From Clostridia bacterium (GTDB taxonomy: Bacteria > Bacillota > Clostridia > Christensenellales > Christensenellaceae): DNA of 34,165 nucleotides. A model generated the notes under the pieces. It made no database searches. It had not been told where the DNA came from and was given only the letters and a program-made list of their open reading frames with translations. Where the stretch lies: contig JAAUYQ010000099.1 in the NCBI GenBank assembly GCA_014805015.1, forward strand, positions 1 to 34,165, read 5' to 3'. Made by a program: the position numbers and the translations under genes. This document shows, piece after piece, positions 15,087 through 18,322 of the stretch. Each line of letters opens with the position of its first letter. Positions within the stretch are counted from its first letter, which is position 1.

Positions 15087-16022
15087 TCAGCAGGTGCTGC
15101 CGGTCTGTCCCGGCTCTGTCTGGGCATACATCGCGAGAGCTTTCTGCAGGCTTTTCCGAACAGCCTGCCGCAGATCTGCCGGCTGCAGCAGCTCAGCAAG
15201 ATCACTGTAGAGAAGCGCAAACCGGAGAAGCGTCGGACGTGGTGCCCGGATGATGGCGATCAGCCACTCATCGCTGCCGGAGCCGAATGACACGTCGTCG
15301 CCAAACTGGCTGCGGATACTCCCGATAGCGCTGCGCTTTACGCTGAAACGTGCGCTGCAGGGACGGGCCGGCTTCTCACTGCTGAGCTTGCGGGCGGCTG
15401 CGTCGAATATCCGCACATCGTGCAGTTCACTGATGCTCTGCTGCATCACTGTACCATCCTCAAAGCGGCAGGTGACGAAATGCCGGCCGCCTTCGGTGCT
15501 CATCAGAAGCGGCTGGAAATGACGACGGACAAATGATCTTACCCCATCACCGCTGACCGGGAAATCTGCTGCGATGTATTTCTGCATCCGCACTGCCTGT
15601 TCCAGAATCCAGACACTGCGCGGCTCACTGACCTGGGAAGCCCGGGACCGAAAATGCAGATTTCCCATCCGGCCGATCCGTCCGGCCAGATCTGCTTTCC
15701 TGGCTGTGCTCAGTGCATGATTGGCCTGGACGCTGTCGAGTATCTGCTGCAGCTCCGGCTCGGTGAACGGATGAAGCAGGTAAAAACCGGACCGCAGCAT
15801 ACTTTCCTGTCCTCCGCTTACGCGCCGATGCTCGTGATACTTGATTTCGTCCCGGTATTCGGCCAGGTCGCTGAGCAGACGCCGGAGAACTTTTGGTTTT
15901 ACGTCAATACCATGCTCCCTGCGCAGCAGCTCCCTGATTTCTTTTTGAGAGAGCGGATGATCCTGATCTGTGTGGTGCCAGAGAATCTCCATGATCCGGA
16001 CGCTCAGAGATCCGTCAGCCAT
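15087..16022 (-). CDS. WYL-like transcriptional regulator
   Basis: In this 311-residue protein, residues 1-60 form a winged helix-turn-helix (RIMEILWHHTD, then SQKEIRELLRREHGIDVKP, then VLRRLLSDL). A long region follows that resembles a divergent WYL sensor domain: RSVWILEQAVRMQKYI near 136-151 and a beta-rich section around 165-225. It is followed by a C-terminal alpha/beta segment with RFALLYSDLAELL, comparable to the WCX extension. WYL regulators respond to nucleic-acid or nucleotide ligands and often control DNA-damage or defence genes. The canonical W-Y-L triplet is not obvious, so assignment is by overall architecture. ATG 16022 has GGAGG five bases upstream. The coiled-coil gene starts 82 bases downstream and may be co-transcribed. 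Confidence 0.65.
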   Translation of the reverse strand: MADGSLSVRIMEILWHHTDQDHPLSQKEIRELLRREHGIDVKPKVLRRLLSDLAEYRDEIKYHEHRRVSGGQESMLRSGFYLLHPFTEPELQQILDSVQANHALSTARKADLAGRIGRMGNLHFRSRASQVSEPRSVWILEQAVRMQKYIAADFPVSGDGVRSFVRRHFQPLLMSTEGGRHFVTCRFEDGTVMQQSISELHDVRIFDAAARKLSSEKPARPCSARFSVKRSAIGSIRSQFGDDVSFGSGSDEWLIAIIRAPRPTLLRFALLYSDLAELLQPADLRQAVRKSLQKALAMYAQTEPGQTGSTC

Positions 16023-16231
16023 GCTATCCTCCTTCCATAAGCTGCCCGTTCGGGCCGGCCCTTCAGCCCCGGCCTCTGTTTTTACTATACGCAGACCGGT
16101 GCGCCGTTTCGGGCCTATCCTGGACTTGGAAAGAAGGGATATGCTGTTTCGAGCCTATCCAGATGCGGGTGCTGGGATATGCCGCCCGCAGCCTGTGTGA
16201 CTTCCGCTGAACACGCCGATTCTGAACCGAC

Positions 16232-16270
16232 AAAAAGGCCGCCCGCCGGTCTGAATACCGGTGAGCGGCC
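16232..16270 (-). terminator. Rho-independent terminator after the duplicated cassette
   Basis: On the minus strand GGCCGC...ACCGGT...CCGGC...GCGGCC folds into a long GC-rich hairpin (16237-16270) followed by TTTTT. It starts about 20 bases past the stop of the last cassette gene and separates the cassette from the WYL-like regulator operon. Confidence 0.85.
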
Positions 16271-16291
16271 CTGTAGGCAGTGCAGTGTACC

Positions 16292-16909
16292 TCAGTTCCT
16301 GGGCTGATCCACGAACTTGACGTATTCCTGCAGTCCCTCGTACTGTTCGTCTGCACGGGAACCCGCGCGGGCGAATACGCCTCTGGCATCATCCTTGGTC
16401 AGCTGGCCGGAGGCAACGAGAGAGACGACAAAGGCAGCGAACGCTTCGGAAAGATCCTCTGCCGTGAGCTGTTCTGTGCAGCGCGTTGAGCAGATGAGAT
16501 CGCCGAGCGTATCGTTCCACATGATCCCGACCAGAGATTTGACATCGCCGAACCGGTCCTGCAGCTCGTCCATGAAAGTCTGGGCCATTACCCGGAACTG
16601 GGCGGCCGGCGCCGGACCGTCCTCCCCGCCGCCGGGCTCGACGGCTGTCAGCAGAATCCGGTCAAGGAGACTCGCTGTCTGCTCAGCGTCGAGTCCGGCC
16701 TCCGCCACGTACACCCAGAAAAAAGAGGCAAAGATGTCAATGAAAACCCCTTCGGGAATCTCCGGATCGATCAGTGTCCGGCGCGTCATAAAGCCGTCTT
16801 CATCGGTGACAGCGAGTGAGGCGAGTCCGTGCACTTCTTCGTCAATATCTTCGAGCGTTTTGGCGAAGTCGGAGATCAGATCATCCATCTTTTCTGTTTC
16901 AGCACTCAT
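16292..16909 (-). CDS. Unknown protein, large member of duplicated cassette (copy 2)
   Basis: This 205-residue acidic protein belongs to no family I recognise. It is a paralogue of the 230-residue product at 17320-18012. The shared core is FIDIFASFFWVYVAEAGLD (near 55-73) against FVHLLGAFFWDYVKQENLD in the other copy. Further C-terminal matches are RFGD...WN...GDL and TAEDLSEAFAAFVVSLVASG with TKDDA. It is predicted mostly helical, with no signal peptide and no convincing transmembrane span; the FFW segment is an amphipathic helix. ATG 16909 overlaps the stop of its small partner (ATGA) and has GAGGAGG seven bases upstream, so the pair is translationally coupled. A strong terminator follows. 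Function is unknown. Confidence 0.75.
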   Translation of the reverse strand: MSAETEKMDDLISDFAKTLEDIDEEVHGLASLAVTDEDGFMTRRTLIDPEIPEGVFIDIFASFFWVYVAEAGLDAEQTASLLDRILLTAVEPGGGEDGPAPAAQFRVMAQTFMDELQDRFGDVKSLVGIMWNDTLGDLICSTRCTEQLTAEDLSEAFAAFVVSLVASGQLTKDDARGVFARAGSRADEQYEGLQEYVKFVDQPRN

Positions 16910-17244
16910 GATTCTTCCTCCTCATTCAGCTGTCCCGGCCGCGGCAGCACCTTGTCCCGCTCAGCGATGACCTGCAGAAGCAGGCCCTTGATTTCCTCGA
17001 CCGACAGGTCATGCGCTTCCGCGTACATACGCAGAAAATCGCCGAGCATGCCGCCTACGTTGTCAGCGTCCATATTGCGGCCCTGAACCGCACTCATGGC
17101 AAAAGTGTCCGCCTTCTGTGCCAGGGCATACCCGCACAGAACGTCCATCTGCGGATTCCTGCCGTCACTGCAGGTGGCACCGCTGACGAAATCCAGCATT
17201 GCCTGGCGGCACTTGTCTGCACCAGTATTGTTTTCTTGTGTCAT
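16906..17244 (-). CDS. Unknown small protein, cassette copy 2
   Basis: This 112-residue protein is unrecognised and is paralogous to the 99-residue product at 18023-18322. Both share an N-terminal helix, then LCGYALAQKAD against LCGYVLKDGAN, then GGMLGDFLRMYAEAHDLS against VGMLGKMLGTYAEGELT, then an E-I-(K/R) helix at the end. It ends in an acidic tail. I place the start at ATG 17244, giving MTQENNTGADKC. The only good Shine-Dalgarno (AAAGGAG) lies about 50 bases further upstream, so an earlier non-ATG start in the same frame cannot be excluded. It overlaps its large partner by four bases and lies 75 bases after the first large copy, in what looks like a four-gene operon. Confidence 0.7.
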   Translation of the reverse strand: MTQENNTGADKCRQAMLDFVSGATCSDGRNPQMDVLCGYALAQKADTFAMSAVQGRNMDADNVGGMLGDFLRMYAEAHDLSVEEIKGLLLQVIAERDKVLPRPGQLNEEEES

Positions 17245-17319
17245 ACAATTCTCGCCGCGGCATCCCGCGGAGGGACGCAGCGCGCGATCTCCTTTCCTCA
17301 TACCGGCCGGCAGCCGGAC

Positions 17320-18012
17320 TTAACTCTGCCCAGCGCCGTCCTGCTTATCTGACTGCAGGGCTTTTTTGTCGCTCAGGAGCATTTCATATGTGTTTGTCAG
17401 GATCTGCTCAACATCATCTTCCGTGAGGGTTCCATCCATCAGCGGCAGCAGCAGGAAAGCCCGGAAAGCATTGGCCCATTCTGCGGGCGACATGTTCGGG
17501 GAGCTGAACGCAGACACGCCGATCTCACCGGCTGAACCGTTCCAGGCGACGGCTGCCATGGCGCGCACGCCATCGCCGCACCGGCGCTTCAGTGCGTTTT
17601 TGTATTCAAAGGCAGTCTCCGAGAAATTCTCCAGCTGTTTCTGAATGGCCTGCTGATCCTCGAGGCGGCCGACACCGGAATTTTCGCGGTAATCGGCCAC
17701 GCTGGCTGCTGACTGCTCCACCAGGGCCATCTCAAGAATGTCACCCACAAGACGCAGGATTCCATCGAGGTCCAGGTTTTCCTGTTTGACGTAGTCCCAG
17801 AAAAAGGCACCCAGAAGATGCACAAAATCCTCCTGCAACATTTCAGCGGACAGCGCAGCCATGGAAACAAGGTCAGAAGTGCCTTCCTCCCCAAGGGGCG
17901 GTCCGATGACTGCCCACAGTCCGGCGGCGCCGTAGGCCTCTGCCCCGCAGTAACTGATGTTCTGGTCGAAGGCTTCGGCAATTTTTTTCAGATCATATTC
18001 GATCTGCTTCAT
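17320..18012 (-). CDS. Unknown protein, large member of duplicated cassette (copy 1)
   Basis: This 230-residue protein is not recognised. It shares the FFW-Y-V core and the C-terminal ANAFRAFLLLPLMDGTLTEDD block with the copy at 16292-16909. It differs in a longer N-terminus (KQIEYDLKKIAEAFDQNI) and a Lys/Gln-rich C-terminal tail. It is mainly helical and soluble, with no signal peptide. ATG 18012 has AGGAGG five bases upstream, and the gene lies ten bases after the small copy-1 gene. The two large copies are clearly diverged, so the duplication is old or the copies have specialised. No catalytic motif is visible. Confidence 0.75.
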   Translation of the reverse strand: MKQIEYDLKKIAEAFDQNISYCGAEAYGAAGLWAVIGPPLGEEGTSDLVSMAALSAEMLQEDFVHLLGAFFWDYVKQENLDLDGILRLVGDILEMALVEQSAASVADYRENSGVGRLEDQQAIQKQLENFSETAFEYKNALKRRCGDGVRAMAAVAWNGSAGEIGVSAFSSPNMSPAEWANAFRAFLLLPLMDGTLTEDDVEQILTNTYEMLLSDKKALQSDKQDGAGQS

Positions 18013-18022
18013 CAGGTCCTCC

Positions 18023-18322
18023 TTACGCGCGTTTGGGACCGTTCTGGAGCATACGCAGCACCAGATCCCTGATCTCGTCCTGAGTCAGCTCGCCTTCCGC
18101 GTACGTGCCCAGCATCTTTCCGAGCATACCCACGACGGCGTCGCGGCTTAAGTATGCGCTGCGGGAAACGGCAATGTGACTGTTAGCGCCATCCTTGAGC
18201 ACATACCCGCACAGATACTGGGCGGGCTGACTCGGTCCGTCCACAAGCGCCATGACGCTGGTACCGTAGTTCTGCAGGGCTTCCTGACATACGGCGGCAG
18301 CAGTTTTCTCTGTATCTGCCAA
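18023..18322 (-). CDS. Unknown small protein, cassette copy 1
   Basis: This 99-residue protein is the first gene of the four-gene unit. The start is TTG at 18322, with GGAGG five bases upstream, giving the N-terminus MADTEKTAAAVC. Matches to its paralogue at 16906-17244 are listed there. The C-terminal half (DAVVGMLGKMLGTYAEGELT, then EIRDLVLRML) is predicted as two helices. There is no signal peptide, membrane span or metal-binding motif. It lies upstream of and divergent to rnhA. In the 297-base interval between them a TACAAT on the minus strand (18424-18429) is a possible -10 element for this operon, although no good -35 is seen. Function is unknown. Confidence 0.72.
   Translation of the reverse strand: MADTEKTAAAVCQEALQNYGTSVMALVDGPSQPAQYLCGYVLKDGANSHIAVSRSAYLSRDAVVGMLGKMLGTYAEGELTQDEIRDLVLRMLQNGPKRA

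Follow-up and report, generated by a model that had tools for sequence, protein, structure and literature searches.

The window, which comprises the whole analysed stretch of 34,165 nucleotides, carries four co-directional genes on its minus strand in the order S1-L1-S2-L2, i.e., two pairs of a small (S) and a large (L) gene, at the place and in the arrangement described in the original prediction. S1 (18023..18322, minus) starts with a TTG codon located after AAGGAGGA and encodes a 99 aa protein with one predicted alpha-beta-beta-alpha-alpha domain. L1 (17320..18012, minus) encodes a 230 aa protein with two putative S-type domains in tandem, spanning residues about 1-97 and 108-230, for which a domain-profile search returned matches at 17716-18012 and 17353-17640. 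The second pair consists of S2 (16906..17244, minus; 112 aa), for which an alternative in-frame ATG at 17301 is possible, and L2 (16292..16909, minus), whose 205 aa product likewise exhibits two putative tandem S-type domains and has a net charge of -26 and a pI of 4.05. Linkage within the pairs is as tight as had been claimed: a gap of 10 bases separates S1 from L1, and S2 and L2 overlap by 4 bases (ATGA), while L1 and S2 are 75 bases apart. The copies align significantly with each other, at 31% identity over 89 aa for S1 and S2 (E=2e-10) and 26% identity over 143 aa for L1 and L2 (E=2e-12), and the motifs said to be shared by the small and by the large products were found as quoted.

Downstream of L2, an intrinsic terminator (16225..16291, minus) consisting of a GC-rich stem of 13 pairs followed by UUUUU closes the unit, as expected from the original prediction. 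The stretch 16225-16295 (minus) folds with -34.8 kcal/mol as a whole (z=-4.2), and none of 200 shuffles was equally stable; the hairpin is not listed by a simple terminator-pattern scan. The flanking genes also agree with the earlier description, in that one flank encodes a WYL/WCX-type protein and a metallophosphoesterase and the opposite flank carries rnhA and sbcCD. The WYL-type gene downstream of the S-L unit (15087-16022, minus) shows a C-terminal WCX match of 21.6 bits (cut-off 23.9), and this weak match suggests a diverged regulator. Analysis by codon position yielded a GC2 of about 0.4 and a GC3 of 0.66-0.69 for the S and L genes, compared with 0.36-0.45 and 0.63-0.74 for the reference host genes gyrA, gyrB, dnaN, sbcC, sbcD, and the WYL gene. 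This host-like composition indicates that the frames are coding and gives no sign of a recent arrival from a genome of differing composition.

Profile comparisons and structure predictions indicate that S and L are homologous and that L is composed of two S-type domains in tandem (L-N and L-C). Profile-profile scores amounted to 24.9 for S versus L-N, 26.8 for S versus L-C, and 32.7 for L-N versus L-C. In 200 column shuffles the respective null maxima were 17.9, 16.2, and 19.8, so that the real scores exceeded 200/200 shuffles, and the S, L-N, and L-C alignments are in the same register. HHalign probabilities for the S/L homology reach only 22-76%, with four diverged sequences on each side. 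The structure models are nonetheless in agreement: AlphaFold2 predicted the order helix-strand-strand-helix-helix once in S2 (mean pLDDT 82.8, 12-row alignment) and twice in L2 (mean pLDDT 68.6, four rows of L only). As the 12-row alignment includes the L halves, the S model partly depends on the homology that it is meant to support, whereas the L model does not. Consequently, each cassette would represent one domain of about 80 residues with a predicted alpha-beta-beta-alpha-alpha fold that is used three times, singly in S and doubled in L.

The assembly to which the window belongs (2.70 Mb, 102 contigs) was queried with S and L, which revealed two additional pairs: S3-L3, located between metK and recD2 on contig C59, and S4-L4, located before tadA on contig C42. 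A profile of the domain, constructed from every copy, detected exactly 12 domains in the four S-L pairs and one solitary S-type gene. The latter encodes 100 aa (C33:2566-2865, identical to L035:2566-2865, minus), has no adjoining L gene, and lies between genes for a MerR-type regulator and a small lipoprotein, with an AbrB/MazE-like gene further on. Identity among the copies within this genome is 22-31%. In all four cases (4/4), the L gene is directly preceded by an S gene, and the claim that whole pairs rather than single genes were duplicated is supported. In a tree of the domains, the L-N halves (81) and the L-C halves (73) form separate groups with moderate bootstraps, while the S domains and the solitary gene fall outside. 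This grouping by type indicates that the split into S, N, and C domains is older than the cassette duplication; thus, single-domain S and double-domain L predate it, and the multiplied unit was the pair.

The S3 and L3 genes overlap by 4 bases (GTGA), and Shine-Dalgarno sequences are present at the S/L junctions of L1, L2, and L3. S4 and L4 are separated by about 113 bases, assuming that L4 starts at its GTG, and L4 is not preceded by a clear ribosome site, which suggests that translational coupling is not universal. The original prediction had proposed an obligate two-component complex and a survey of small/large co-occurrence as a check. The complete pairing of every L gene in its own genome makes a two-component complex the best inference, but the designation “obligate” is weakened by the solitary S-type gene, since S-type proteins may also act alone.

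Searches with L or domain profiles in 18 genomes of the same family, 297 of the order, 391 of the class, and 398 of the phylum, which are overlapping sets of together about 1,000 genomes, found S-L genes only in the genome of the window. This genome is the sole sampled member of its genus, so that the family may be restricted to the species, to the genus, or to a group somewhat wider than that. No relatives were found in GTDB contigs (L profile), viral contigs (L and S profiles), phages (L1), or plasmids (L2), all of which are sets that may omit the window's own genome. The phylum scan returned four weak matches (E 4e-4 to 5e-3). Three were rejected as chance-like matches to an LT-x-E helix in unrelated proteins, namely, a 277 aa exported Gly-rich protein found in two species of one genus and a 113 aa helical protein; the fourth, in a 1159 aa frame, was set aside as weak. 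Pfam and NCBIfam contain no match above cut-off, in line with the families having been called unknown, and the sub-threshold matches in Pfam, NCBIfam, PHROGs, and PADLOC are scattered over unrelated families. PDB sequence searches mostly returned helix-repeat or isolated-helix matches, many of them to designed proteins. Foldseek gave nothing with E<=0.001 in PDB and BFVD, and VIA-align no Z above 4.0; this lack of structural matches to predicted models does not prove the fold to be new. A broadly worded literature search turned up no relevant work. S-L is a real, uncharacterised orphan gene family, seen so far only in one bacterium.

The genomic context of the further copies provides insight into how this distribution arose. 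The genes metK and recD2 are direct neighbors in 13 relatives belonging to four genera, where 14-34 bases separate the aligned ends, and in two relatives recD2 is preceded by other neighbors. The genome of the window instead exhibits metK, a terminator-like hairpin, and S3-L3, and recD2 begins a few bases beyond the L3 stop codon. The adjacency of metK and recD2 in the 13 relatives identifies S3-L3 as a lineage-specific insertion, and recD2 may depend on the cassette transcript in this genome. The hairpin of metK lies at L016:3140-3230; in relatives recD2 follows metK within a few tens of bases. At the tadA site, the same acetyltransferase gene follows tadA in the relatives and in the window's genome. 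Upstream of tadA, the relatives (L089-L093) carry a conserved gene for a lipoprotein-like protein of about 150 aa with a motif like YDNFINDLDAxTRLQTGL, which is unrelated to S-L. The presence of S4-L4 in its place is consistent with insertion or replacement, a less clean case than that of metK/recD2. In the only relative whose contig starts with dnaA, this region contains no homologues of the genes that flank the unit in the window. The cassette ends were searched for target-site duplications and for terminal repeats in common, and none were found. Elsewhere in L016, a gene at 48-1031, which we take to be of the Rpn/YhgA-like nuclease type, is followed at 1187-1480 by a near-identical second copy of its C-terminal approximately 97 codons, and L035:4393-4926 represents a possible partial relative of this gene.

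The restricted distribution might also reflect a failure of homology search, with S-L being an old and widespread family that diverged past detection. Indeed, as copies within one genome share only 22-31% identity, orthologues in other genera could escape detection. Yet, relatives lack any gene between metK and recD2, and the profile searches across family, order, class, and phylum retrieved weak, chance-like matches only. A widespread ancient family is therefore considered unlikely.

With regard to function, the invariant residues of L are mostly hydrophobic (FFW-YV core), those of S are G, G, L, and A, and neither protein exhibits a catalytic-type set of invariant residues. The L proteins are strongly acidic, with pI values of 4.05-4.35 and net charges of -18 to -26. 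We lean, by a modest degree above even, toward a lineage-restricted S-L cassette that specifies a non-enzymatic, acidic S:L heteromer with a binding or adaptor role and that was subject to coupled translation, duplicated as a unit, inserted, and diverged. In this model, a single domain of about 80 residues makes up S in one copy and L in two, and both genes would be translated from one message under tight coupling, mediated either by overlapping genes or by a Shine-Dalgarno sequence close upstream of L. This coupling would allow S and L to form a pseudo-symmetric complex containing three or more domains. The whole cassette would then have been copied and placed at several chromosomal sites, where each copy may have diverged toward its own specificity or separate partners. 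The complex, its stoichiometry, and its binding role are what we infer from pairing and domain content. The system offers a lineage-restricted family with a partly readable history, comprising an empty site in relatives and four diverged cassettes, in which paired genes deploy one domain as a monomer and as a tandem dimer. Should S:L complexes with separate partners be demonstrated, they would exemplify the integration of a new protein module into conserved operons.

The neighborhood of the cassettes suggests a link to the nucleic-acid enzymes encoded by recD2, tadA, rnhA, and sbcCD by adjacency. S and L could accordingly be regulators or inhibitors of RecD2, SbcCD, RNase HI, and TadA or, in the extreme case, DNA or RNA mimics, as cassettes are located directly upstream of recD2 and tadA, the window unit lies beside rnhA-sbcCD, and the charge of the L proteins would fit such a role. 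However, these are only three sites, genes of this kind are in any case frequent near the origin, acidic proteins are common, and structural searches retrieved no known DNA mimic, which leaves this role rather improbable. Equally improbable is an immunity-like or conflict function, in which diverging paralogues would act as immunity proteins or antitoxins against varied attackers. The cassettes are diverged, acidic, multicopy, and lineage-restricted, Foldseek ranks BH3703 (Pfam DUF600) first for L (E=0.013, prob 0.54), and one member matches a PHROG “immunity protein” at E=0.031. Against this, the TM-score between BH3703 and the L model, which is of moderate confidence, is only about 0.2 with an rmsd of about 16 Å, and Pfam scans of S, of L, and of the individual domains list no YezG/DUF600 match. 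Moreover, there is no PADLOC match, neither a toxin nor a secretion gene or mobile element stood out near any of the copies, and the common fold of S and L sets them apart from most toxin-antitoxin pairs. The more specific proposal that a new alpha-beta-beta-alpha-alpha domain arose in one lineage, that a self-contained S+L cassette with three domain copies spread as a whole among housekeeping genes, and that each S:L serves as a dedicated acidic regulator of the adjoining enzyme (RecD2, TadA, or SbcCD/RNase HI) is regarded as a long shot.

The original prediction had interpreted the four genes as a tandem duplication. A recent event of this kind inside the window is very unlikely: though the two pairs are arranged head to tail at a distance of 75 bases, L2 is nearest to L3 on another contig (86.7 bits, versus 50.1 bits to L1), the copies in the window share just 26-31% identity, and among the three topologies of the L quartet the grouping of cassettes 2 and 3 is best, whereas that of cassettes 1 and 2 is marginally excluded (AU p=0.044). 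For L, sequence comparison has thus largely refuted a recent tandem origin. Pairwise S scores also favor S2-S3 (46.2 bits), while the S quartet resolved no topology and does not give the same history as the L quartet. The closer relationship of L2 to L3 than to L1 suggests that the window cassettes are probably two different members of the family situated side by side rather than recent tandem twins.

Comparison of the favored acidic S:L heteromer with known systems yielded partial resemblances. The BH3703/DUF600 proteins (YezG-like; PDB 2ia1 and 3i0t) are of similar size to L, but VIA-align gave no row with Z>=2 for them and kinship with S-L is not supported. The Roadblock/LC7-like MP1 family (MAPKK1_Int, PF08923) gave a sub-threshold match over a helix-hairpin-helix stretch (best E=0.014); against whole L2 the values were E=0.049 and 13.9 bits (cut-off 25), and only one of 13 domains matched at E<=1. 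Membership was rejected because the score lies below the curated gathering cut-off. The roadblock fold has a second group of strands, which the predicted S/L fold lacks. In many copies, the last S/L helix starts with (D)G-x-L-T-x-(D/E)-(D/E), similar to SHOCT and EF-hand-type caps and to many short helical motifs. However, a D-x-D-x-D-G calcium loop is absent, EF-hand matches have E values of 0.14 and above, and the rest of the domain is unrelated; in the 13-domain alignment, only a partial DG-x-L-T is found in L1-C and there is no loop of three acidic ligands, so EF-hand membership was rejected. An anti-phage defence system (0 PADLOC families for the four L proteins), a toxin-antitoxin pair (the two proteins are homologues in which Pfam and NCBIfam scans detected no toxin or antitoxin domain), and a phage or plasmid gene (no match of L1 in phages or of L2 in plasmids, and no relative in viral contigs with the L and S profiles) were likewise rejected. 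A further parallel is provided by taxonomically restricted, orphan paralogous families, which also occur in several copies in one genome without homologues elsewhere in the searched sets. The S-L unit differs from these in being a two-gene cassette in which one domain is apparently used three times and which is inserted between housekeeping genes.
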